A stretch of DNA of 29,856 nt, from positions 1 through 29,856 of the IMG/VR virus record IMGVR_UViG_3300030430_001099; one strand, 5' to 3'. The notes beneath the pieces are model-generated. The model did not search any database, was not told where the DNA came from, and saw only the letters and a program-made list of their open reading frames with translations. Each line of letters opens with the position of its first letter. Position 1 is the first letter of the stretch. Shown piece by piece: positions 3,854 through 28,285 of the stretch. Made by a program: the position numbers and the translations under genes. Source of the DNA: a virus.

Positions 3854-5524
3854 ATGGAAAACACATTAAAATTTAAGAAGTATCACTTGCCTTGTCCGGC
3901 TTGTGGTAGTAGTGATGCCCTATCAATCAACGAAAATGGTTCAGCTAAGTGTTTTAGTTGCGATACTTTTTTTCCTAAAGGGGTGGACAATCAAGCTAAT
4001 ATAGTAGATAGTGAAACTAAGATGACAGAAACAGTTAGAGAATTAAATGCCCATGGTGGTACTTTTGCTAAGTTAGCAGACAGAAATATCTCAAGAGAAA
4101 CTGCAGAAAAGTATGGAGTTAAAACTGTTTACGATAGTGCCGGACAAATAGCCCAACACATTTATCCTTTGTATATTAACAACGAGCTAACCTCTAACAA
4201 GATTAGATATGTTAGAGATAAAAAATTTAGTTATGATGTTAGTCCACAAGGAGTTGGTTTATTTGGTCAACAACTATTCAAAGAGGGTGGCAAATATTTA
4301 ACCATTACTGAGGGTGAGTGTGATGCTATGGCCGCTTACGAATTACTAGGCAGTAAGTGGGCAGTAGTCTCTATTATTAGGGGAGCTTCTGGAGCAGTTA
4401 AGGATGTTAAAGAAAACTTAGAGTACATTGAAAGTTTTGACAACATTGTCATTTGTTTCGATAAAGACAGACAAGGCATTGAGTCAGCTAAGAAAGTCGC
4501 TAGTATTCTTAAGCCCGGCAAGGCTAAGATAATTACCTTACCTAATGGTTACAAAGATGCTAATGATATGCTTCTCAAGGGCAAGTATAAAGAGTTTGTT
4601 AGTGCATGGTGGGATGCTAAACTTTATACTCCTAGTGGAATTATTAGAGTATCAGAAAAGAAAAACTCTTTTTTAGATAGAGAAAAGAAAGAGTCTGTGC
4701 CTTATCCTTGGGCTGGTTTAAATCAAAAACTTTATGGTCTTAGACAAGGTGAGTTAGTAACTTTAACCGGTGGTACAGGTCTAGGTAAGTCTAGTATTAC
4801 AAGAGAATTAGAACATTGGTTGGTCAAACAAACTAATGATAATGTTGGTATCATAGCACTTGAAGAGGACTGGCGAAGAACAGTAGATGGTATTTTATCT
4901 ATTGAGGCTAATGCTCGATTGTATGTCGACCAAGAACGAGAAAAGTTTGACGAGTCAACTTTGATGGATATGTTTGATAGAGTGTTCAAAGATGACAAGG
5001 TTTTTATTCATGCTCATTTTGGGACTAATCAGATAGATGATATCTTTGCTAAACTAAGATACTTAATTGTTGGTTGTGATTGTAAGTGGGTGGTAGTAGA
5101 CCATCTCCACATGCTAGTTAGTGCTTTAGAAGAAGGTGATGAAAGACGAGCCATAGATAATATTATGACTAGGCTTAGAAGTTTAGTAGAAGAAACTGGA
5201 GCCGGTTTAATTCTAGTCTCACATCTGAGAAGAGTAGATGGTAATAGAGGACATGAAAATGGTATTGAGGTTTCTTTGTCGCATTTAAGAGGTTCTAATA
5301 GTATTGGACAATTAAGTGATTGTGTGATAGCATTAGAAAGAAATCAACAATCCGATGACCCTGAAGAGGCTCGGACAACTAGACTTAGAATCTTAAAGTC
5401 TAGATATACTGGAGATGTTGGCATGGCCACAGCTTTAATCTACGACAAAGAAACAGGAAGACTGTCTGAAAATTACGATACTGAATTTACTGTACAAGAG
5501 AATCAGACATCTATTGCATTTTAA
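3854..5524 (+). CDS. Primase-helicase (T7 gp4-like), 556 aa
   Basis: ATG 3854 is preceded by a GAGGT ribosome-binding site; the frame is open further upstream only across the terminator. N-terminal zinc knuckle: C14-x2-C17 and C33-x2-C36, which in this family recognises the primer template. The TOPRIM primase core has E153 (ITEGECDAM) and the D203-x-D205 pair (CFDKD). The helicase half has a Walker A motif GGTGLGKS at 306-313 (K312), a Walker B strand WVVVDH ending at D416, and LILVSH near 452-457. The length is close to T7 gp4 (566 aa). It unwinds DNA as a hexamer and lays primers for the polymerase encoded directly downstream, whose ATG overlaps this stop. Confidence 0.95.
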   Translation: MENTLKFKKYHLPCPACGSSDALSINENGSAKCFSCDTFFPKGVDNQANIVDSETKMTETVRELNAHGGTFAKLADRNISRETAEKYGVKTVYDSAGQIAQHIYPLYINNELTSNKIRYVRDKKFSYDVSPQGVGLFGQQLFKEGGKYLTITEGECDAMAAYELLGSKWAVVSIIRGASGAVKDVKENLEYIESFDNIVICFDKDRQGIESAKKVASILKPGKAKIITLPNGYKDANDMLLKGKYKEFVSAWWDAKLYTPSGIIRVSEKKNSFLDREKKESVPYPWAGLNQKLYGLRQGELVTLTGGTGLGKSSITRELEHWLVKQTNDNVGIIALEEDWRRTVDGILSIEANARLYVDQEREKFDESTLMDMFDRVFKDDKVFIHAHFGTNQIDDIFAKLRYLIVGCDCKWVVVDHLHMLVSALEEGDERRAIDNIMTRLRSLVEETGAGLILVSHLRRVDGNRGHENGIEVSLSHLRGSNSIGQLSDCVIALERNQQSDDPEEARTTRLRILKSRYTGDVGMATALIYDKETGRLSENYDTEFTVQENQTSIAF

Positions 5525-7308
5525 TGGAATTAGTATTTGATATAGAAACGAATGGATTGCTTTGGGAATCTTCAATAAAAAACAGTGAGACTGGTGAAGT
5601 CACTAATCTACCACCAGCTTCTGTTATTTGGTGTATCGTAGCTATTGATGATAATAATACAGTACATACTTTTAAACCTGAAAGCATTGACGAGGGCATT
5701 GAGTTTTTACAATCTGCTGATAGTTTAGTTGGGCATAATATCTTAGGCTTTGATATTCCAGCTATAAATAGGATTAAACAGATAGACTTATCTGCTTATA
5801 CTAATATTATTGATACTTTGACCTTATCAAGATTATTACATCCTACTAGGGAAGGAGGACATAGCCTAGAAAAGTGGGGTTGGAAGCTCAACTGCCCAAA
5901 GTCAACTGCTCCAATATTTACAGAGTACAGCGATGAGATGCTTGACTATTGTATTCAAGATGTTAAATTAAATAAAAAAGTTTTAGAAAAATTAAGAAAA
6001 GATAGTATAGGTTTTTCTAAAGAATCAGTAAAACTAGAACACGAAACCACTAAAATATTATTAGAACAAGAACTAAATGGTTTTCTGTTTGATGAGAGGA
6101 GAGCTATAGATTTATTAAGCTCTTTAAACCAAAGAAAAAAAGAAGTAGAAGATGAAGTTCATGCTACTTTCAAGCCTAAGTGGGTGCCTGTAAAAGAGGT
6201 TACACCTAAGCTTAAAAAGGATGGTACTTTGTCTAAATCTGGACTTACCTCCGTTGAGTACCAAGAGAGAGTTGCAACTAATGACACTACTCCTTTTACG
6301 AGGAAAGAACTTAAGGAATTTAATCTCGGCTCTCGTCAGCAGATAGGAGAATATTTAATTGATTTTGGTTGGCAACCACAAAGATTTACCCCTACAGGTC
6401 AACCGATTGTTGATGAAGGTACTCTCAGCAAGATAGCACATATCAAAGAAGCTCAACTGATAGCTGAGTATTTATTAATACAGAAAAGAGTTGGTCAAAT
6501 TGAATCATGGATTGATAATATCAAAGATGATAATAGAGTTCATGGAGCTGTTATTTCTACTGGAGCAATAACTGGTAGAATGACACATAGAAATCCTAAT
6601 ATGGCTCAAGTACCGGCAGTTTACAGTCCTTATGGTAAGGAGTGTCGAGCTTGTTGGACTGTGCCTAAAGGATATAAACTAGTAGGTATAGATGCTTCAG
6701 GGTTAGAATTAAGGATGTTAGCCCACTATATGTCAAACGAGGAATACATAAATGAAATTATCAATGGAGACATTCACACAACTAATCAGCAGTTTGCTGG
6801 ACTTAAATCAAGAGATGAGGCTAAAACTTTCATCTATGCACTTATATACGGAGCCGGAGATGAAAAAATTGGAAAAATCATTGCAGGAAATAGAGCAGAT
6901 GGTAAACAACTGCGAGAACAGTTTCTTACTAGTTTACCAGCACTTCAATCTCTTAAAACAAGAGTTGACACAGCGGCTCAAAGAGGATTCCTCAAAGGAT
7001 TAGATGGTAGAAAAATATTTTTAAGACACAAACATGCTGCTCTCAATACTTTACTACAAGGTGGTGGAGCAATAGTTATGAAAAAAGCTCTAACAATATT
7101 ATACGACAAACTTAAAACTTGTAATCTTGATTTTAAATTTGTTGCCAACATTCACGATGAATGGCAAATTGAAGTGAAAGAAGGTCAAGCAAATCAGGCG
7201 GGACAGTTAGCAGTAGAAAGTATTCGTGATGCCGGTGAATACTATAACATGCGTTGTCCCCTTGATGGCGAATTTAAAGTCGGAGATAATTGGAGTGAAA
7301 CCCACTAA
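5524..7308 (+). CDS. Family A DNA polymerase with 3'-5' exonuclease (T7-like), 594 aa
   Basis: The start overlaps the helicase stop (TAATG). Exonuclease motifs: Exo I FDIET (D6, E8), Exo II HNILGFD (D77), Exo III Y142-x3-D146. Polymerase motifs: A, VGIDASGLELR (D390); B, R430-x3-K434-x3-Y438 followed by YGAG; C, HDEW (H544, D545, E546). Motif B is very close to T7 gp5. The position equivalent to E. coli Pol I Phe762 is Tyr438; in phages this Tyr form has been linked to a virulent lifestyle. At 594 residues it is shorter than T7 gp5 (704). Proofreading and polymerase residues all look intact. It overlaps the next gene by 14 nt. Confidence 0.96.
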   Translation: MELVFDIETNGLLWESSIKNSETGEVTNLPPASVIWCIVAIDDNNTVHTFKPESIDEGIEFLQSADSLVGHNILGFDIPAINRIKQIDLSAYTNIIDTLTLSRLLHPTREGGHSLEKWGWKLNCPKSTAPIFTEYSDEMLDYCIQDVKLNKKVLEKLRKDSIGFSKESVKLEHETTKILLEQELNGFLFDERRAIDLLSSLNQRKKEVEDEVHATFKPKWVPVKEVTPKLKKDGTLSKSGLTSVEYQERVATNDTTPFTRKELKEFNLGSRQQIGEYLIDFGWQPQRFTPTGQPIVDEGTLSKIAHIKEAQLIAEYLLIQKRVGQIESWIDNIKDDNRVHGAVISTGAITGRMTHRNPNMAQVPAVYSPYGKECRACWTVPKGYKLVGIDASGLELRMLAHYMSNEEYINEIINGDIHTTNQQFAGLKSRDEAKTFIYALIYGAGDEKIGKIIAGNRADGKQLREQFLTSLPALQSLKTRVDTAAQRGFLKGLDGRKIFLRHKHAALNTLLQGGGAIVMKKALTILYDKLKTCNLDFKFVANIHDEWQIEVKEGQANQAGQLAVESIRDAGEYYNMRCPLDGEFKVGDNWSETH

Positions 7309-7717
7309 ACAAGACCGCAAGAAGTTTGATATAGACTTAGAGTTTGGTAGTATTAGAGAAGATAAAGTTGCAGAAATGCTCTGTAACAAAAAGATTGAAG
7401 TTAAGTCTGAACGAGGCATGTGGATGAAAACTGGTAACATAGCTATCGAATATCAAAGTTATGGTAAGCCCTCTGGTATTGAAGCCACTGAATCTGATTA
7501 CTGGTTTCATCATCTTTGTGTAGGTGATAAAGAATACTGTACCTTAGTTTTTCATACTGATGTTTTAAAAACCATAGTTAAAGAACTAGATACTTTTAAA
7601 ACTGTTTCTGGCGGTGACCACAATGCTAGTAGAATGTATTTAGTAAACTTACAAAAACTTTTCTCATCTGATGTTATTAAAGCTTTTAAGGAATTAGAAG
7701 ATGAGCAAGAAAAATAA
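7295..7717 (+). CDS. PD-(D/E)XK endonuclease, likely T7 gp3 counterpart, 140 aa
   Basis: A GTG start at 7295 is chosen because CGGAGA (7281-7286) lies 8 nt upstream. An in-frame ATG at 7265 lacks a ribosome-binding site. Visible nuclease pattern: E22 in a helix, then the strand KKIEVKSE with E35-x-K37, then TGNIAIEYQSYGKPSG with E52. This order and spacing fit small PD-(D/E)XK enzymes such as phage endonuclease I or Holliday-junction resolvases, and the position between DNA polymerase and exonuclease is comparable to gp3 in T7-like phages. The likely role is to resolve branched DNA and degrade host DNA. Its end overlaps the next gene by 17 nt. Confidence 0.75.
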   Translation: MKPTKQDRKKFDIDLEFGSIREDKVAEMLCNKKIEVKSERGMWMKTGNIAIEYQSYGKPSGIEATESDYWFHHLCVGDKEYCTLVFHTDVLKTIVKELDTFKTVSGGDHNASRMYLVNLQKLFSSDVIKAFKELEDEQEK

Positions 7718-8579
7718 ATCTTTAGATACTTTAGTAGAAGACATCTACAACACTATCGGAGTCCTAGCCGATGGTAATAAAATTAAAATCTCAAATAAAC
7801 TTCTAGAAGAATTAGGCATTGACATTGTATCTGCTGTTAAAGAGTGGGCAACTCCGGTTAAAAGGAATAAAGCTACTAGTCAAACTTTACGCATGTCCAA
7901 CATTGGTAAACCTGAAAGACAACTCTGGTATGACATGCATGAAGAAAGAGATACTTCAAGCTCAATGGAGCCTTCAACTTTTATTAAGTTTTTGTATGGT
8001 CATATTTTAGAGGCCTTATTAATTTTCTTTGTTAAATTAGCTGGACATAAAGTTACTGCTCAACAAAAACAAGTCTCAGTTAAGGGTATCAAAGGACACA
8101 TGGACTGTAAGATTGACGGTGAAGTAGTAGATATTAAAACTGCTTCTGGTTATGCCTTTCGTAAATTTAGAGAAGGCACTTTAGCTGAACAAGATACCTT
8201 TGGTTACTTAGCTCAACTAGCTGGTTATGAAGCAGCAGAAAAGACATCTGAGGGAGGTTTCTTAGCTTTTAACAAAGAGACAGGAGAATTAGCTCTTTTT
8301 AGGCCTCAAGACCTTGACAAACCCAATATAAAGGATAAAATAGATAAGGTAAAACAAATTATTAAATCAGATTCTCCACCTGATTATTGTTTCACTGAGA
8401 TACCGGAAGGTAAAGCTGGTAACATGAAGTTGCCAAAAGAATGTACTTTCTGTCCTTATAAATTTAAATGTAGGTCTGACTCCAATAATGGAGAGGGACT
8501 TCGTGTTTTTAATTATGCTAAAGGTCCTGTGTACTTTACTAAAATAGTCAAAGAACCTAATGTAGAAGAGTTATTATGA
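7701..8579 (+). CDS. RecB/Cas4-family PD-(D/E)XK exonuclease, 292 aa
   Basis: The RecB-type nuclease residues are visible in order: H101-x2-E104 (GHILEALL), D135 (GHMDCKIDG), D144-I-K146 (VVDIKT) and the QxxxY motif at Q172-Y176. Near the C-terminus, C248-x2-C251-x5-C257 has the spacing of the iron-sulfur site of Cas4 and AddB nucleases; C230 or C136 could be the fourth ligand. The protein probably fills the T7 gp6 exonuclease role in host DNA recycling and end processing, though gp6 belongs to a different fold. The start at 7701 overlaps the endonuclease gene and the stop overlaps the next ATG (ATGA). Confidence 0.85.
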   Translation: MSKKNKSLDTLVEDIYNTIGVLADGNKIKISNKLLEELGIDIVSAVKEWATPVKRNKATSQTLRMSNIGKPERQLWYDMHEERDTSSSMEPSTFIKFLYGHILEALLIFFVKLAGHKVTAQQKQVSVKGIKGHMDCKIDGEVVDIKTASGYAFRKFREGTLAEQDTFGYLAQLAGYEAAEKTSEGGFLAFNKETGELALFRPQDLDKPNIKDKIDKVKQIIKSDSPPDYCFTEIPEGKAGNMKLPKECTFCPYKFKCRSDSNNGEGLRVFNYAKGPVYFTKIVKEPNVEELL

Positions 8580-12901: not shown

Positions 12902-14632
12902 TTAAATTGTGTAGATTTTTACTGCTTTTTCTTTACCTTTAACAAAAATTGGCTCTAACTCTGTTGCTGTTCCTTGATATTTGCTTATAGTTGCTTCACC
13001 TATAACTAAATCTTTACCAACAGACTTACATGAGGACTCTAAACGAGCTGCTAGATTACAAGCATCGCCCAATACACTATATTCAAAACGGGACTGGCTT
13101 CCGATATTTCCTGCTACAACTTCTCCAGAATTTATGCCAATACCAATATCAATACCTAACTGTGCTTCTTGCATTGCGTGTCGTATCTGAAGGGCTGTCT
13201 CAATAGCTTTTTGTTCATGGTCTTCAACATCTACTGGTGCATTCCAAACAGCCATCATAGCATCACCAATATATTTATCTACCATCCCTTCATTAGCTTT
13301 GACCGCATCTGCTTGGATAGTTAAAGCTTTATTCATTATCTCAACAACTTCTTCTGGTGCTAGTTTTTCTGATAGACTTGTAAAGCCTCTAACATCGGTA
13401 AACATAATAGTACATCTTCTTCTCTCACCACCTAATCTTAATAACTCTGGATTCTTTTGTAGTCTAGCTACCTGTCGTGGGTCAAGATAAGTAGAAAACT
13501 GTTTCTTAATTTGCTGTCTAAGTTTAAACTGAGTTCTAAAGTTTAAATAGAACTGTTGAGCAGCAATCAAAAATAAACTTATCAGAGTCCATGTCACATC
13601 TATTAAAAGATTCTGTTGTATAAAAGACCAACCGAGATAAGCTACTCCACCAAAAATAGTTAAGGCTGAGACTAAACCTGTAGTGATACCCAAGAAACCA
13701 GTTAAGATAGCAACAAGTAAACCAGCTACTACTAAGATACTTAGCTCGGCAAACAAACGATAGTCTGGTATGTTAGGTGTTTCTAATAAAATAGACTCAG
13801 CTAGAGCTGCTTGAATTTTGTGTGGCTCTAACAAACCCACAGGGGTTGCTAATTGTCTCTGTATTCCTGCTGCAGTAAAGCCCACAAAAACAAACTTACC
13901 TTGCACATCCATTTCAGTTAGGTTAGTCTCTGGTGTTTTAACCCAACTAATCCATTTCTTACCTGTCGAGTCTGTCGAGATAGGCGGTATGCCTTTTACT
14001 CTTATCATTTCTATACCATTCTCGTTGGTTTTGATTTGATAAGTATTACCACCACCTAGTATCTTAAGAACTTCTGTACCAAAAGAAGCTACCCAACCAT
14101 CCGGAGTTTGTTGGATAAGAGGTATCTTTCTAACTAAGTTATCTATATCAACCGGCACTGACACAGCTCCTTGAGCAGAAGCTTGTTTTAAAATAGAAAT
14201 ATTTTCTAAGAATCCTTGAGCCTGAGTCAAACTAACATCAGGGCCTAAGATAACTGTCCCGTGTGTCTGTGGATATTTATTATTGTTTACTTCGGGCATT
14301 GCTATGACACTAGGAGCTAAACCAAGCATCTCAGCAAAGGCTTCATCGCCTCCTAGTCTATCAGGATGAGGAAAGAGTATTGTCCAGCCAACTCCTAATG
14401 CTCCTTGTTGTAGTAATTTAAGATGAATATCTGCTAAGGTTTGCCGAGGTAAAGGATAACCGCCTTGTTGGTCTATAAACTCTTCATCAATGTTAAGAAT
14501 AGTAAAGTAACCAGTAGGCTCTGGAGTCTTGACAAGGGCATCAAAGGTTTTGAGTCTTAGTATCTCCAGAGGAGGAGCATTAAAGACTAGAGGTAATGTT
14601 AGAAAGAATAATAAAAGACTAGCCCACTTCAT
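12902..14632 (-). CDS. CHASE2-domain class III nucleotide cyclase, 576 aa
   Basis: Likely an inner-membrane receptor making cAMP. An N-terminal signal/anchor (1-18) leads into a CHASE2 sensor (about 22-285; FDALVKTP, LNIDEEFI and GKFVFVGFT segments). Three membrane helices follow (about 293-312, 314-336, 342-362), then a cytoplasmic cyclase domain (about 404-576). Catalytic residues: metal Asp D413 (FTDVRGF) and D457 (KYIGDAMM), K453, S519 at the base-selecting position usually Asp or, in class IIIb, Thr, then N526 and R530. K453 plus Ser points to ATP rather than GTP. All key residues are present, so it looks active. Its start overlaps the preceding gene (ATGA) and it is the last gene of the minus operon. 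CHASE2 cyclases next to FecR proteins are familiar in bacteria, not in phages. Confidence 0.92.
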   Translation of the reverse strand: MKWASLLLFFLTLPLVFNAPPLEILRLKTFDALVKTPEPTGYFTILNIDEEFIDQQGGYPLPRQTLADIHLKLLQQGALGVGWTILFPHPDRLGGDEAFAEMLGLAPSVIAMPEVNNNKYPQTHGTVILGPDVSLTQAQGFLENISILKQASAQGAVSVPVDIDNLVRKIPLIQQTPDGWVASFGTEVLKILGGGNTYQIKTNENGIEMIRVKGIPPISTDSTGKKWISWVKTPETNLTEMDVQGKFVFVGFTAAGIQRQLATPVGLLEPHKIQAALAESILLETPNIPDYRLFAELSILVVAGLLVAILTGFLGITTGLVSALTIFGGVAYLGWSFIQQNLLIDVTWTLISLFLIAAQQFYLNFRTQFKLRQQIKKQFSTYLDPRQVARLQKNPELLRLGGERRRCTIMFTDVRGFTSLSEKLAPEEVVEIMNKALTIQADAVKANEGMVDKYIGDAMMAVWNAPVDVEDHEQKAIETALQIRHAMQEAQLGIDIGIGINSGEVVAGNIGSQSRFEYSVLGDACNLAARLESSCKSVGKDLVIGEATISKYQGTATELEPIFVKGKEKAVKIYTI

Positions 14633-15081
14633 AAATCACCTGCTTGAGCCATAACATTAAGATTGTTTAAGATAATTAATCTATAAACTTTATTAGACCT
14701 TGCTAACATTTCTATGTTTGGATTACATAGATATACATAAACTCCAACACTTTTAATAAAGATTAAAGTTTTAAGACTAGGTCGGTCAGGAAGAAAAGGA
14801 TTACCTTCAATAGCATAACCTTTAATATTGACAGCTCTGTTAGTAGTGTAAATATCTAAAAACTGTAATAACAAAGCTTCTGTGTAGATAGGAGTAGGAT
14901 TATTAAACTCTAAATTAAACTGATAAGTTGGTAAAGTATAAGTAATATTTTCAAGCTGAGGCTTGTTGAGGTAAGGTGCTTTAGTAATCTGCCAATAAAT
15001 ATCAGGCTTATCCGGAAGATTGCTTGATAGTAATGGAAGAGTTACTACCACCATTAAGAGTAATAGTAATTGCTTTGCCAT
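14629..15081 (-). CDS. Small exported protein, possible divergent OmpA-like fold, 150 aa
   Basis: A clear signal peptide (MAKQLLLLLMVVVTLPLLSS) directs it to the periplasm. The mature part has the order strand (YQFNLEF), helix (YTEALLLQFLDIY), strand (AVNIKGYAIEG), helix (SLKTLIFIKSVGV), strand (YRLIILN). That order recalls the OmpA C-terminal peptidoglycan-binding domain, where the segments read IxIxGHTDxxG and LSxxRAxxVxxYLxxxGV. The residues that bind peptidoglycan are not conserved, so the resemblance is weak and may be misleading. Its first 74 nt overlap the FecR gene in another frame, and its stop overlaps the cyclase start. By context, a periplasmic partner of FecR and CHASE2 is reasonable. 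Confidence 0.6.
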   Translation of the reverse strand: MAKQLLLLLMVVVTLPLLSSNLPDKPDIYWQITKAPYLNKPQLENITYTLPTYQFNLEFNNPTPIYTEALLLQFLDIYTTNRAVNIKGYAIEGNPFLPDRPSLKTLIFIKSVGVYVYLCNPNIEMLARSNKVYRLIILNNLNVMAQAGDL

Positions 15082-16120
15082 CTTGTATAATTAAAACCTT
15101 GTAGCTGTTGTTGGTATCTAAATCTAATCTTACTGTGTCTTCTACTTGTCTTAAAAAAGTTAAAACAGTGTCGGTTACAAAAGTATTTACTTGAGTGTTG
15201 GGGTCAAAACCAAAAGCTGTGCCTTGAACATTAATATCCCCAGTGTTCAAAACATTTTGCTCTAGCTCATCTATTTCTTCTATAATACTTAAAAGGTCTT
15301 CTAAGAAATTTACATCTAGATAGTTAATATCTAACTCAGTAAATTCTAAGTTATCTTCTGCTAAATAGTCCTGTTCTAGTTCGTCAAACTCTAAATAGTC
15401 TATATCTAAAATATTATCTGAACCTTCTGCTTGAGCCTCTTCGCTAACAAAGTTTGGGTCTTGTTTGGGTGGATTGACAATCAACATATTGTCAATAATA
15501 TCTAGAGTCAAGTCTAAGATAACAGGACTACTAGGTGCCGACTCAAACAACTCAACTGTAGTAGCTTGGTAGGGCTTGTTGAGAACTACTTGTCCTACTA
15601 AAGTAGAAACTACTATTTCACCAGAAGCGATACCCTGCTCATCAGGTAGTAGGATTATCAAAGACCTACCTAGTTCATCGACAGTAACAGTAAAGTCTGT
15701 GCCTCTAATACCAATGGTAGCACTAGGAGTTTCAATAGAAATGTTTTCTCTATTGATAGAAGCTAATTTACCAGTGATAAATCTAGCAGTACCACTAGCA
15801 AACTGTAGAGCCATCTTAGATTTAGATGGGTCAGGGTCATAGATAAATTCATCTATAACTAATTGTGAATGTTCAGTTAAACGAACTTGAGATTCGTCTA
15901 GAAAAGTAATGCCTATTCGACCATTAGAGGTCTCGACATTATCAAAACTATTAATAGTAAAGGCGAGAGCAGCAGTAAAGGGGTCTTGCTCCCTTACTAC
16001 TCTCCCTATACCTTTTAATTCTGTTATGCTTCCTATACTAGCAACTTGTGCTGCCTGAATCTGATTGTATGATACAGACAGTGCCATTATTGCCAGTAGA
16101 AATAATCTTAAGCCAATCAC
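15008..16120 (-). CDS. Exported FecR-domain protein with acidic 5-residue repeats, 370 aa
   Basis: A signal peptide (1-23, ending IQAA) precedes a FecR periplasmic domain (about 28-190). Typical signatures are ITFLDESQVRL, LVIDEFIYDP, FASGTARFITGKL and ETPSATIGIRGTDF (130-143). Next comes a Pro-rich joint (near 217), an acidic repeat region (238-277: a Leu every fifth residue) and a C-terminal beta segment ending ITIKQSSG. FecR domains transmit envelope signals or scaffold surface systems; unlike true FecR, this protein has no N-terminal cytoplasmic part, so it is fully periplasmic. The C-terminus recalls a curlin repeat unit, suggesting an anchor or nucleator for the neighbouring curlin-like protein; that is inference. 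The long overlap with the upstream gene (83 nt) is needed to keep the signal peptide. Confidence 0.88.
   Translation of the reverse strand: MIGLRLFLLAIMALSVSYNQIQAAQVASIGSITELKGIGRVVREQDPFTAALAFTINSFDNVETSNGRIGITFLDESQVRLTEHSQLVIDEFIYDPDPSKSKMALQFASGTARFITGKLASINRENISIETPSATIGIRGTDFTVTVDELGRSLIILLPDEQGIASGEIVVSTLVGQVVLNKPYQATTVELFESAPSSPVILDLTLDIIDNMLIVNPPKQDPNFVSEEAQAEGSDNILDIDYLEFDELEQDYLAEDNLEFTELDINYLDVNFLEDLLSIIEEIDELEQNVLNTGDINVQGTAFGFDPNTQVNTFVTDTVLTFLRQVEDTVRLDLDTNNSYKVLIIQDGKAITITLNGGSNSSITIKQSSG
15290..15409 (-). repeat. Eight tandem acidic pentapeptide units in the FecR-domain protein
   Basis: Residues 238-277 read as consecutive 5-residue units LDIDY, LEFDE, LEQDY, LAEDN, LEFTE, LDINY, LDVNF, LEDLL. 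Every unit starts with Leu and is rich in Asp/Glu/Asn with an aromatic at its end or centre. They differ from canonical pentapeptide repeats (A-D/N-L-x-x) because the residue two before Leu is Asp/Asn/Thr rather than Ala. The DNA has a matching 15-nt period. Confidence 0.75.
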
Positions 16121-16739
16121 TTGCTAAAGTTGAACTCTGTGTAATATTAAATGCTCGGCTGCTCCCTGTTTGGTCTAAATAAAAATAGCCATCAGCATAG
16201 CCGCTACCATTATAGACCACATTGTTTGAGTCACCATCTATATCTATATAAGATGTAGCTCCATCAATATCCACTGTGTAGTCTATGGTATTTTCATCCC
16301 CATTGACAACCCAGTCGAGGTCTAAGTATTCTGCTAAAGCATTTGTTGCTACATTTAACTCAAAGTCATTACTTGAGCCTGTAACATCAACGTAGTAATT
16401 ACCACCATCAGCACTATAAGTATCTGTGGGGTCTACTTGAATTTCAAAAGTATTACTATCACCATCAAATTCAAAAAAGCCTACTAGTGAATCTAGGACA
16501 ATGTCCCCGATAAATTTGTTGGAATCCCCAAGTTGATTAATATCTAAAGTCATAGAACCACCAGCTAATTCTAGTGCAGTCATTTGACCTGAGACAGCAT
16601 CAAGACCACCAATAAGATTGGAACCGCCTAGTTGTTCAACATCTAGGTTTAAGTCTGAACCAACTTGATTGATGTATATTTCATTATCGGCTTTAACTAT
16701 AAAGCCTAAGAAAGCTAATAATATAATTATTCTATTCAT
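16038..16739 (-). CDS. Curlin-like secreted repeat protein, candidate amyloid subunit, 233 aa
   Basis: A short signal peptide (1-17, IVKA cleavage) is followed by a low-complexity beta-repeat protein rich in Gly, Asn, Asp, Ser. Repeats centre on a G-x-x-N turn, often preceded by Gln: QVGSDLN (25-31), QLGGSN (36-41), QLGDSN (69-74), FDGDSN (91-96), VTGSSN (119-124), VNGDEN (145-150), IDGDSN (167-172), QTGSSR (190-195), STGNNG (214-219). From the third unit on they recur every 22-28 residues, with hydrophobic/polar alternation after each turn, as in curlin repeats (SxxxxxQxGxxNxxxxxQ). Two cysteines (C222, C233) near the end are atypical. It lies directly after csgG and overlaps it by 8 nt, making it the obvious secretion substrate. 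Repeat type is seen; amyloid formation is inferred. Confidence 0.8.
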   Translation of the reverse strand: MNRIIILLAFLGFIVKADNEIYINQVGSDLNLDVEQLGGSNLIGGLDAVSGQMTALELAGGSMTLDINQLGDSNKFIGDIVLDSLVGFFEFDGDSNTFEIQVDPTDTYSADGGNYYVDVTGSSNDFELNVATNALAEYLDLDWVVNGDENTIDYTVDIDGATSYIDIDGDSNNVVYNGSGYADGYFYLDQTGSSRAFNITQSSTLASDWLKIISTGNNGTVCIIQSDSGSTSC

Positions 16740-17550
16740 AACTCCAATATCTCCTCTCTATTCCTTGTTGTACTATTGCTAGTACACTTGCTTCTATCGC
16801 TTTTTGGAGAGCAATAGAAACACTTTCATTTTGTGTAACACCAGATTCTATTTCTACTAATTCTGTCCCCGCTTCAATAAACTTAAAGACATCATTAGAA
16901 ACCCCTACAGACAGGATAGTCTTTGATGTTAGTACTTCCATTAATATCTCACCGGTATTAACAGAAACTAATCGTAAAGAAACTGTGACAGTGTCCTCAC
17001 GATATTGACGACTCATGCCGATACCTAAATATCTAGCACCATTACCACCACTTTTTAGGTTCGTGTCATACGAGATGACTCCGCCTTGAACTAGTAGTCC
17101 GGCAAAGATTAGGGGATTAAGTTCAGTCTCATCCTCAAAATCTTTACGAGTTGTTCTAATTATTTGTCGTTCTTTTGTTAAATTATCTAGTCCTACTCTT
17201 TCGACCACAGTAAAGAATTGACCATCTGCAGCATGTTTAAAAGCCCTGATAAGTAAAGCATCAGGCGACTGTGTTATGGCTGAACTAAACAAAGCAAAGG
17301 TACTATTACTCTTTCTTTGTCCTGTTAAATCTGTAAAACTATTAGGATAAATAGCAATAGTCGGCTTAATTCTAGCCGGTTTTAAATTTTTTAATTCTTC
17401 TGACTGTAACTCTAATACGGTACTTGGTCTTTTCTTGGAATAAGCTCCTATGACATTCTCATCTAAAAGAGAACTGTGTCTAAGACTTGAACAACTAGAA
17501 AGTAAAAGAACCGATAGGAACAGTAATCTCTGTAACATTCCCCTCTGCAT
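16732..17550 (-). CDS. csgG: CsgG curli-type outer-membrane secretion channel, 272 aa
   Basis: CsgG forms a nonameric outer-membrane pore that exports curli subunits. A lipoprotein signal ends LLLSSC with C20 as the lipidated residue. Family signatures run through the protein: LTGQRK (75-80), VVERVGLDNL then ERQIIR, GGNGARYLGIG, NTGEILMEVLTSKTI and a C-terminal AIEASVLAIVQQGIER. The length (272) matches E. coli CsgG (277), so it looks complete. In the constriction loop after TGQRK, F88 aligns with E. coli Phe56, but the Asn55 and Tyr51 positions differ. A second start at Met5 is possible. The first 56 nt overlap csgF. It is followed immediately by its probable substrate. Confidence 0.93.
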   Translation of the reverse strand: MQRGMLQRLLFLSVLLLSSCSSLRHSSLLDENVIGAYSKKRPSTVLELQSEELKNLKPARIKPTIAIYPNSFTDLTGQRKSNSTFALFSSAITQSPDALLIRAFKHAADGQFFTVVERVGLDNLTKERQIIRTTRKDFEDETELNPLIFAGLLVQGGVISYDTNLKSGGNGARYLGIGMSRQYREDTVTVSLRLVSVNTGEILMEVLTSKTILSVGVSNDVFKFIEAGTELVEIESGVTQNESVSIALQKAIEASVLAIVQQGIERRYWSYE

Positions 17551-17950
17551 CTGTAACCTTAAGTGTAATCATAGTACCATCAGCACTGACACTATATTCT
17601 ATGGTGTTGCCCATTAATTCTAAAACACCGAATGTGCTTGGGTCTTCCCCAAACAAAGCATCTACTAACTGTCTAGATAGTTGGGCATATATTCTAGACT
17701 CTAAGTTTCTAATAAATCTTGCTAAAGTTGTATTTTCTGCCTCTCTTTCAAGTTCTTCTTGATAGGCTTTGATTTCAGCTCTGATAGCTTCTTTTCTATT
17801 GAACTCTTGATTTTCAATAGTTAAGTAATGAGCTGAAGTATTTAGCCCACTAAAAGATGGTGATTTAAATTTATGTACTAATTCATCTCCAGCTAAAGTG
17901 TTACTAACACCAAGCAACAAAACTATAAATAACGTGCTTAATATTTTCAT
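17495..17950 (-). CDS. csgF: CsgF curli assembly protein, 151 aa
   Basis: CsgF is secreted through CsgG, plugs the pore with its N-terminus and couples export to fibre nucleation. The start at 17950 is chosen because GAGGAG precedes it and a signal peptide (1-20, SNTLA) begins there; a longer in-frame version from 17992 would precede the signal peptide. The mature N-terminus carries HKFKSPSFSGLN (F28-x2-P31-x-F33-x-G35), matching the CsgG-binding FRNPNFGG segment of E. coli CsgF. A helical part (51-100) and C-terminal strands (IEYSVSADG, ITLKVTDAEGNVTEI) follow as expected. It is 151 aa against 138 in E. coli. No csgE, csgC/H or csgD is visible. Confidence 0.9.
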   Translation of the reverse strand: MKILSTLFIVLLLGVSNTLAGDELVHKFKSPSFSGLNTSAHYLTIENQEFNRKEAIRAEIKAYQEELEREAENTTLARFIRNLESRIYAQLSRQLVDALFGEDPSTFGVLELMGNTIEYSVSADGTMITLKVTDAEGNVTEITVPIGSFTF

Positions 17951-17963
17951 TTCTATTATCTCC

Positions 17964-18251
17964 TCAATCTTTTCTTTGGTCTTTCTTTCCATCTGCCCTT
18001 GCTAATCTATCAACATCTACAGGCACACCCATAGCTGTCCGACACATTGTATCTATTCTTATAATATCGTTGTCTATTTGTCTTATCCTATCTATTAAAG
18101 CTACTATCATACCATGTTGTGTATCTAGTTTTTTATGTACATCTGCTATCAAATGATTAAATAGTTTCCACACCATCCATCCAGCAGCTACAGCAAAAGC
18201 TGCAGGAATCCCTACAGTTTCTAAAATGTCCATCCAAGTTTTCGTATTCAT
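17964..18251 (-). CDS. Small membrane protein with coiled coil, possible holin or lysis accessory, 95 aa
   Basis: One membrane helix (about 12-31, GIPAAFAVAAGWMVWKLF) is followed by a coiled-coil/amphipathic stretch (DVHKKLDTQHGMIVALIDRI) and a charged tail (ARADGKKDQRKD). The layout, one N-terminal membrane helix with a charged C-terminus in a short late gene, fits some holins, but holins are too diverse for sequence reading alone. Its ATG overlaps the stop of the upstream gene, and it is separated from csgF by 13 nt. It is common in marine podoviruses as a hypothetical protein to my recollection. Confidence 0.65.
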   Translation of the reverse strand: MNTKTWMDILETVGIPAAFAVAAGWMVWKLFNHLIADVHKKLDTQHGMIVALIDRIRQIDNDIIRIDTMCRTAMGVPVDVDRLARADGKKDQRKD

Positions 18252-25924: not shown

Positions 25925-28285
25925 TTAAACTGTTTGATTTCCACCAGTACCAAAAATACCACCTGTATTGCTTCCATAAGTTTGTATGCCTCGACTATAT
26001 GAATTACCAACAGAGCTTAATAAAGCTGATAAGTAATCATCATATTTTTCACCAGCTTTACCTTCATTAGCTAAAGCAGTTGCAATAATTTGAGCTTTTC
26101 TATCTTCTTCACTTTGAATACCTCTAAAAGTAAAATCTGCCTCATCTCTTAATTGCTGACCTAAAAAAGCAAGAGACTGGGAAGATAAATTAAAAGCATT
26201 CATGGCATTTTGCATATTAATTTGATTTTGCACAGCAGTATTAGCTGTATTAATTTGTCTTCGCCACTGGACATTAGAAGCTTCAACAGCTGCAGCATTT
26301 TGAGCATTCCATTGATTTCTATTAAATTCTAAAGAAGCATTATATTGATTAACTTGATTAACTAATTGAGCATTAAATTTTTCAACATCAGCTTGTCTAT
26401 TAGCATTCCTAGCTGTTGCTGCGTTTTCTTGAGTTGTATTAAATTGTGAAACTGCAGTTTGTTGACTAGCATTATATTGATTAATTTGATTATTTAAATT
26501 AGCCATAAATTGATTTATTTGATTTTCTGAAACTGCATTAAATTGAGCAGCTGCATTATCTGAAGCTTGATTAGATAATATTCTTTGTTGTTCTTGTTGA
26601 GCTTCTAACATATAAGCTTGTTGTTGATTATTTAAATTAGCCATATCCATAGCTAAAAAGTTTTTAGCATTATTAATCTGAGCTTGTTGATTTAAATTAG
26701 CTTCAGTTAAATTAGCTTGTGACATAAGCACAGCATTTTGAATAGTTGCTTGTTGTCTACTATTTGCTTCAGTTAAACTTACAGTTTGTAAAAATCTACT
26801 ATTACTTAAATTAGCTTGTTGTTCATTACTAAGATTAGCCATATCCATTTTAAAAACATTACCAGCATTAAATAAAGCTGTTTGTTGTTGTCTTTGAGCA
26901 TCTGCTTCAGCTGCTTGAGCTTCAATACCTCTTTGTTGAGCTACTGATTGTTGAATAGCTTGAGCATTTGCTTGTGCTAAAGGTATAGCTGATTGAATAA
27001 TAGCATTAATTAAAGTATCTCGACCAACAGTAGAGGCTGATAAACCTCTAGCAGCTAACATTCTTTCAACACTAGTTACAGCCGGTCTAGCCCACATTGG
27101 TATTTCACCATTTTCCATGCCACTTAAAAGACTATCAAGTTGATTAGAAACTAAAGCTTCTTCAGGTAAGCCTTCAATAATACCTCTTTGTTCTTCACTA
27201 AAATCTGTAAGCCTTGCCTCTAAAGCTTCTGGGTCATTACCAAGCTCGGTAATGTCTTCTTCAGATAAACCTGCATTTCTTAATTGTTTTTTAGCTCTAG
27301 TAACTCTAGCTAAACTAGTCCCAGCATTTTTAGCTGCTTCAGCTTTAGCTTCAGGACTAAGTTCTCCCTGAGCTGCTGCCATTAAAGCACCTTTTTCTAT
27401 TTTAACTTCAGCTCCCTCTATTGGGGTAACTCTATTTACAGATACTTCATCAATTTCTTTAGTAACATCTCCCTCTGCTGCAGAGACTTCTGCATCTTCT
27501 TTAACTTTGGCTGCTTCCATTTGAGCTGCAGAAACTTGTGTAGCTGGACTAACTTGACTTGCTTGAGCTTTAGCGACTTCTTCATCTAATAACTGAGCAG
27601 CTTTAGTAACACCTACAGCAGGAGCAGCAGTCATTTCAGTTGTAACTTGAGGTGTTAAAGGTATAGGATTACCTGCATTATCTAATATTAAATTACCCTG
27701 AGCATCTCTTTGAAAACCTGCTTGTTCAGCTTTGGGTATTAAAGCTCCTTCTGCTACTTGTCCAGTAGCTGCTGCTTCTATTTGTGTTTGAGCATCAAAA
27801 GGAGTTGGTTCAGGTGTTTCATCTCCCGGTGCTGGAGTTGGCTCAGGACTTGGTGCCGATGTAGGAGCTGGACTTGGTGCTGAGGTTGGTGTTGGTGCTG
27901 GAGTTTCTCCACCCGGGTCAGGTTCAGGTTCAGGATTAATAATAGGATTTGTAGAACTACCTCCTGTAAAACTACCACCAACAGGAGGTGTTGTAGGTTC
28001 TCCATCCGTAGGTGACGGTGGTTCTGTTTTTTCACTAGGCCCTGCTGGAGTTGGAGTAGAAGGAACAGAAGGACTAGTAGGTGTTAATTCAATACTTCCT
28101 TTAGGATTAGACTCATCTTTTGGTACTGCACCAAACTTTGCATCTTCTTCATTTATTTTAGTTGTTTTACCACCAACAACTAGACCTTTTCTAATATTAT
28201 CTACAATATTTTTTACTGCACCACCTTTTCTGTAATCTTGTCGTACAGAAACTGTTCTTGTTCTTTTCTTTTTATTTTTTGCCAT
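25925..28285 (-). CDS. Large Ala/Gln/Asn-rich virion protein with Pro-rich linker, 786 aa
   Basis: The N-terminus is basic (MAKNKKKRTRTVSVRQDYRK). Residues 68-162 are a flexible Pro/Ser/Thr/Glu-rich linker with short repeats (PTSAPSP units at 133-148). A charged helical part (about 220-415) follows. Then comes a long Gln/Asn/Ala-rich helix (about 425-700) with 11-residue periodicity: MDMANL recurs at 480-485 and 546-551, exactly 66 residues apart. The C-terminus is Gly/Ser-rich. Such hendecad helices occur in rod-like or tube-forming phage proteins. The setting indicates an internal or tail-tube-associated structural protein. Function not known. Confidence 0.7.
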   Translation of the reverse strand: MAKNKKKRTRTVSVRQDYRKGGAVKNIVDNIRKGLVVGGKTTKINEEDAKFGAVPKDESNPKGSIELTPTSPSVPSTPTPAGPSEKTEPPSPTDGEPTTPPVGGSFTGGSSTNPIINPEPEPDPGGETPAPTPTSAPSPAPTSAPSPEPTPAPGDETPEPTPFDAQTQIEAAATGQVAEGALIPKAEQAGFQRDAQGNLILDNAGNPIPLTPQVTTEMTAAPAVGVTKAAQLLDEEVAKAQASQVSPATQVSAAQMEAAKVKEDAEVSAAEGDVTKEIDEVSVNRVTPIEGAEVKIEKGALMAAAQGELSPEAKAEAAKNAGTSLARVTRAKKQLRNAGLSEEDITELGNDPEALEARLTDFSEEQRGIIEGLPEEALVSNQLDSLLSGMENGEIPMWARPAVTSVERMLAARGLSASTVGRDTLINAIIQSAIPLAQANAQAIQQSVAQQRGIEAQAAEADAQRQQQTALFNAGNVFKMDMANLSNEQQANLSNSRFLQTVSLTEANSRQQATIQNAVLMSQANLTEANLNQQAQINNAKNFLAMDMANLNNQQQAYMLEAQQEQQRILSNQASDNAAAQFNAVSENQINQFMANLNNQINQYNASQQTAVSQFNTTQENAATARNANRQADVEKFNAQLVNQVNQYNASLEFNRNQWNAQNAAAVEASNVQWRRQINTANTAVQNQINMQNAMNAFNLSSQSLAFLGQQLRDEADFTFRGIQSEEDRKAQIIATALANEGKAGEKYDDYLSALLSSVGNSYSRGIQTYGSNTGGIFGTGGNQTV
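26576..26878 (-). repeat. Hendecad repeat region coding for a long helix
   Basis: Residues 470-570 of the 786-aa protein contain near-repeats with 11-residue spacing, for example NVFKMDMANLSNEQQA and NFLAMDMANLNNQQQA 66 residues (198 nt) apart, with NLTEANLNQQAQ and SLTEANSRQQAT between them. The periodicity is at protein level; the DNA copies have diverged. Confidence 0.6.

Follow-up and report, generated by a model that had tools for sequence, protein, structure and literature searches.

A degenerate-repeat curlin in a podovirus-borne curli cassette, with an invariant cysteine pair and a candidate curlin-like tail on the FecR protein encoded next to it

What is the product of a viral gene that encodes an Asp-rich repeat protein directly behind csgG, and does it form a fibre? 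The question arose from a stretch of 29,856 nucleotides (IMG/VR record IMGVR_UViG_3300030430_001099, positions 1 to 29,856; hereafter the window), for which an initial annotation had proposed a divergent curlin-like amyloid with a signal peptide, Asp-rich repeats and two cysteines near the C-terminus. An open reading frame of 233 amino acids spans all of positions 16038-16739 on the minus strand; stop codons are frequent in the plus strand of this region. Its start overlaps the end of csgG by 8 bp, and in nearly all relatives, too, csgG lies directly upstream. By sequence, the N-terminus is a Sec-type signal peptide (MNRIIILLAFLGFIVKA, with cleavage predicted before DNEIY), and the cleavage junction ADNE[IV] is retained among the relatives. 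Asp makes up 12.0% of the protein, the mature part carries 35 acidic versus 3 basic residues, and the pI is 4.05. C222 and C233 are the only cysteines, C233 being the last residue. Thus, position, signal peptide, Asp content and cysteines are all as first described. The gene, named curlin 1 here, and its neighbours have the following coordinates in the window.

12902-14632, minus strand: CHASE2-domain adenylate/guanylate cyclase (PF05226, 7e-30; PF00211, 3e-24)
14629-15081, minus strand: putative secreted or membrane protein of 150 amino acids, in the place of the myophage curlin 2; no family match
15008-16120, minus strand: FecR-domain protein of 370 amino acids (PF04773, 1.5e-11) with a signal peptide, the FecR domain, an acidic linker predicted to be disordered and a predicted all-beta C-terminal domain (AF2 model)
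15011-15103, minus strand: candidate curlin-like tail at FecR residues 340-370, with the motif Y-x-psi-x-psi-x-Q ... G-x-x-[NS]-x-I-x-I-x-Q
16038-16739, minus strand (read from 16739 to 16038): curlin 1, predicted secreted degenerate-repeat curlin with about eight to nine beta-arch rungs
16041-16043, minus strand: codon of Cys233, the C-terminal residue; a C-terminal Cys is found in all podo-type homologues
16074-16076, minus strand: codon of Cys222, at an outward position of the last strand; invariant in the podo-type homologues (57/57)
16732-17550, minus strand: csgG, outer-membrane secretion pore lipoprotein (PF03783, 6e-50; lipobox LSSC20, Cys20 invariant)
17495-17992, minus strand: csgF (PF10614, 1.5e-14), translation probably starting at Met15, position 17950
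17964-18251, minus strand: 95-amino-acid protein with an N-terminal transmembrane helix and a coiled coil (by sequence), in the slot of a published "histidine kinase"

The same gene order (small membrane protein, csgF, csgG, curlin, FecR, optional gene, CHASE2 cyclase) was found in about 180 viral contigs. In nearly all loci the curlin gene accompanies csgG; the loci were retrieved by curlin queries, so that csgG without a curlin is under-sampled. Cassettes of this kind have been published before and occur commonly among viruses from sea water. A type VIII secretion (curli) cassette was reported in 2022 for HTVC023P-type podoviruses and pelagimyophages and is expressed in metatranscriptomes (PMC9599517), and csgF/G and "sibling capture" were reported in PMC7029224. 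The initial view that a phage-borne functional amyloid would be unusual is not supported: HTVC008M and Melnitz have annotated homologues, they are published as pelagiphage CsgA/B, and curlin 1 has at least 596 relatives in IMG/VR.

The published pelagiphage cassette shares with the window the order of upstream small gene or genes, csgF, csgG, CsgA/B, FecR, the optional second gene and the adenylate cyclase. In PMC9599517, FecR is interpreted as an iron-dependent regulator, the short upstream gene, which is no core component of the system, is taken for a histidine kinase, and CsgA/B are omitted from the phylogeny. We equated this short gene with that of the 95-amino-acid protein since position, number and short length agree; relatives carry it once or twice, ahead of csgF. 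Neither a kinase nor any other domain was found in the 95-amino-acid protein with Pfam and NCBIfam. Judged by sequence, the published "histidine kinase" is thus probably a membrane/coiled-coil protein of about 95 residues.

The window differs from the published cassette in having the non-curlin 150-amino-acid gene instead of a second curlin. A motif at the end of this protein scored 8.6 bits as a curlin repeat, but it is absent from the orthologues and was dismissed as chance. The protein has a signal-like N-terminus and an LDIYTT...EGNP motif and is limited to some window-like cassettes. At loci L130-L133, L139, L140, L144 and L160 the gap between FecR and the cyclase encodes proteins of about 112-127 amino acids whose C-x4-C and TVNQ(N) ends, or variants of these, resemble the end of curlin 2. 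Elsewhere in the window, positions 25925-28285, near the structural genes, encode a protein of 786 amino acids that is rich in Pro/Thr in its N-terminal part and contains Asn/Gln/Ala-rich repeats; it gave no family match over the cut-off.

The homology of curlin 1 was examined by sequence, profile and structure comparison. A tblastn search with curlin 1 found HTVC008M (E 3e-14) and, weakly, Melnitz. The HTVC008M homologue gp016 (YP_007517882, "curlin minor subunit CsgB") is 31% identical over 97% of the protein and likewise lies behind csgG. Another HTVC008M protein, gp018 (L082:8759-10084), annotated as hypothetical, contains a PA14 domain and curlin repeats and is possibly a glycan-binding curlin. 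Profile comparison with hhalign aligned window-type with myophage curlins from end to end (99.8%, E 2.6e-28), and alphaproteobacterial curlins were matched at 87% (E 4e-6). The score of curlin 1 against PF07012 is 14.9 bits, under the curated Pfam cut-off of 20.7; at E <= 0.1 the same family has matches in 32 of the 52 relatives aligned, the best with 1.6e-5, and the Melnitz homologue scores 26.0 bits. A PDB sequence search gave no meaningful match.

Structure prediction had been named as the check for a beta-solenoid of stacked strand-turn-strand repeats, and AF2 indeed predicts such a solenoid from 52 sequences (pLDDT 82, pTM 0.78). Among viral models, its best Foldseek matches carry the annotation "Curlin associated" (TM up to 0.80, probability 1.00). 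In the PDB fold search many non-amyloid beta-solenoids were matched with high Z (SufB/D, pectate lyases, tailspikes); a specific curlin or CsgA fibre was not among these matches, an absence that is not evidence. The hhalign homology, the AF2 model and the viral Foldseek matches support the proposal of a curlin-like solenoid in a csg cassette.

The repeats were then resolved into rungs. The Gly turns of curlin 1 lie at residues 27, 38, 71, 93, 121, 147, 169, 192 and 216. Nine G-x-x-N turns had been counted originally; only six are strict (38, 71, 93, 121, 147, 169), and the number nine is reached when the Gly turns G27 (GSDL), G192 (GSSR) and G216 (GNNG) are included. The spacing of 22-28 residues from the third turn onward was reproduced (22, 28, 26, 22, 23, 24). 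Six G-x-x-N compare with 2.2 +/- 1.3 in the shuffled mature sequence (p = 0.014), which is modest by itself. All nine rungs, however, have an invariant turn Gly among the 57 podo-type homologues, and rungs 2-7 keep the Asn at 100%. Ladder Gln are retained in the first strand of rungs 1, 2, 3 and 8 and in the second strand of rungs 1, 8 and 9 of the same proteins, the terminal-rung residues being Q25, Q36, Q69, Q190, Q201 and Q225. Many of the conserved Gln had been described as replaced by "Asp or Val"; in rungs 4-7, where Gln is lost, the slot itself is filled by the hydrophobic F, V or I, and Asp, Thr or Asn stand beside it.

Scoring each rung against the kernel N-x5-Q-x-G-x-x-N-x5-Q gave Gly in 9/9, Asn in rungs 2-7, Gln7 in 4/9 and Gln18 in 3/9. 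Read from sequence, this pattern fits the published D-class with degenerate repeats and not the canonical class. Bacterial D-class curlins have incomplete motifs, hydrophobic residues in the Gln columns, long arcs and a predicted solenoid (PMC10192328), all of which the window curlin shares; it differs in being Asp-rich and phage-encoded and in having exactly two cysteines including the C-terminal one. With E. coli CsgA/CsgB it shares the CsgG and CsgF partners and the beta-arch repeats; in contrast to E. coli curli there is little sequence similarity, csgC/D/E are absent from the window cassette, and FecR and the cyclase are present. Asp is named as a gatekeeper residue type of CsgA in PMC11414021, and by analogy the Asp residues of curlin 1 may act as gatekeepers. 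By its repeat pattern, curlin 1 is a probable D-class member of the already known phage curlins.

The cysteines follow a strict pattern. Exactly two are present in the mature part of 135/135 unique homologues. In the window-type proteins they form C-x10/11-C at the C-terminus (57/57), whereas the myophage-type proteins, HTVC008M gp016 among them, carry a mid-protein pair (78/78, mostly C-x7/8-C). A second scan, with a set overlapping the first, found the same pair in 57/57 unique proteins. The second myophage curlin has its own C-terminal C-x4/5-C pair. As a cellular control, 16 of 24 alphaproteobacterial curlin-like ORFs contain no cysteine. In L230, an alphaproteobacterial csg operon, one curlin ends in C-x5-C as phage curlin 2 does; cysteine clamps are therefore not restricted to phages, and this curlin fits the published alphaproteobacterial origin. 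A disulfide between the two cysteines is likely. If oxidised, the cysteine loop might impede export through CsgG or prevent stacking. Because of this clamp and the degenerate middle rungs, it is uncertain whether curlin 1 is a functional amyloid.

The dN/dS of mature curlin 1 is 0.12, with inward positions (0.085) below outward ones (0.126). Curlin 1 is therefore under strong purifying selection and is a maintained, functional protein.

We consider it probable that curlin 1 is the structural subunit of a type VIII (curli) cassette carried by a podovirus related to pelagiphages, and that it is a surface solenoid, exported by CsgG, whose stacking gives a fibre or coat on infected cells. The data show homology, gene order, predicted fold and selection; the following course is inferred. 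Curlin 1 would be exported by Sec and leave through the outer membrane via CsgG with CsgF. Outside the cell it would fold into a beta-solenoid of about eight rungs, which would stack either on further copies of itself or on the curlin-like FecR tail. The resulting surface fibre or coat may promote aggregation of infected cells or shield them from other phages. Since curlin 1 is the sole recognisable curlin in this phage, we propose FecR for the role of the nucleator CsgB. Against this reading speak the sub-cut-off Pfam score, the loss of the Gln ladder in rungs 4-7, the lack of a specific curlin in the PDB search, the possible effects of an oxidised cysteine loop and the Melnitz-infected cultures, which showed no clumping (PMC9004378).

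The main competing explanation, which we regard as a serious though clearly less likely one, is that curlin 1 is exported by CsgG/CsgF yet is capped and remains a monomeric or short-oligomeric beta-solenoid, that is, a curlin-derived, non-amyloid surface protein. The hydrophobic core that replaces the Gln ladder in rungs 4-7, the strong acidity, the invariant cysteine pair at the C-terminal end and the high-Z matches to ordinary solenoids all agree with it, and imperfect or blocked terminal rungs prevent the polymerisation of solenoids (PMC10192328). However, the conserved Gln sit in the terminal rungs, where stacking would happen, C222 points outward by register so that the clamp may leave the stacking edge open, and D-class curlins occur in bacteria.

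Alternatively, the phage could gain from the CsgG/CsgF pore, for example in lysis timing or solute uptake, with curlin and FecR as accessories. This was put forward in PMC9004378 and PMC7029224 and has been proposed for Melnitz, and the cassette adjoins small membrane proteins. We hold it to be improbable: a curlin accompanies csgG almost throughout, within the sampling limit given above, and it is under strong purifying selection. Moreover, Melnitz was said to be without csgA/B (PMC9004378); its GenBank record (EXVC044M, L083), in contrast, has two annotated curlin-associated repeat proteins at 5193-5912 and 6971-7987. A virion protein, such as a tail fibre or depolymerase-like solenoid, is very improbable, since the solenoid folds common in tailspikes and the nearby structural genes are countered by the signal peptide, the location within the csgF-csgG cassette, the curlin homology and the same cassette in unrelated myophages.

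To return to the fibre model, its proposed nucleator was analyzed at the tail. Q346 and Q367 are invariant in 122/122 FecR orthologues. The tail was scored with a PSSM built from 170 cellular curlin kernels, the threshold being the 99.9th percentile of the background. The last half-motif reached a mean of 9.3 bits, and 86% of the orthologues were above the threshold versus 0/896 control ORFs, mostly opposite-strand frames and thus a lenient control. The first half is weak (34% over the threshold). Pfam recognised no curlin repeats in the FecR protein, and hhalign of the tail against curlin 1 was weak (probability 5%, P 0.007, 12 columns); the case for the tail therefore rests on the PSSM motif statistics. 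AF2 predicts successive strands in the C-terminal domain, at a pLDDT of 68 for the whole protein and about 58-79 for the tail domain. Alphaproteobacterial FecR matches listed end by position 235 of 377 and none extends into the tail; in this sample the curlin-like tail therefore seems specific to the phage cassette. In L230 and L231, the csgF-csgG operons that were examined had neither a FecR nor a cyclase gene beside them.

The tail may dock on the solenoid or nucleate it. We tentatively suggest, as a possibility that falls short of being probable, that the phage FecR ends in a curlin-compatible mini-solenoid which acts as nucleator or anchor of the disulfide-clamped degenerate curlin and which, with the CHASE2 cyclase, could signal to the infected cell that the fibre is assembling. 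Descriptions of the cysteine pattern and of the FecR tail were not found in the open-licence papers searched, and both appear to be new.

The closest PolA relatives of the phage are the pelagiphages HTVC115P, HTVC103P and HTVC104P (51-52%); for a structural protein, distant matches were found in HTVC027P and 023Pt_psg01. A SAR11 host is presumed from these related phages. Across 297 SAR11-order genomes CsgG gave a strong match in one, a MAG with a phage-like cassette contig, and weak matches in four others; the presumed host would normally be without a csg system. A scan of genome contigs yielded, apart from one cellular operon, largely phage-like cassette contigs that had been binned into MAGs of bacteria. 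Cassette contigs L186-L192 and L194 stand in MAGs named Maricaulis, Flavobacteriaceae, Pirellulales, Marinimicrobia and Pelagibacter and are probably phage contigs. The very short, unannotated record OR851715.1 (Salmonella phage S.Kent 1-2-1, 1499 bases) has a csgG match (40.5%) and is perhaps a bacterial fragment.

Although curli cassettes are widespread among marine phages, neither their product nor their purpose is proven. The cysteine pair and the FecR tail provide concrete, testable parts: polymerisation, seeding by FecR and an oxidation switch of assembly. Answers on these three points would decide between the surface fibre and the pore as the source of the benefit to the phage. If the proposal for the tail is true, the FecR genes of these phages would be structural or sensory partners of a fibre rather than iron regulators.
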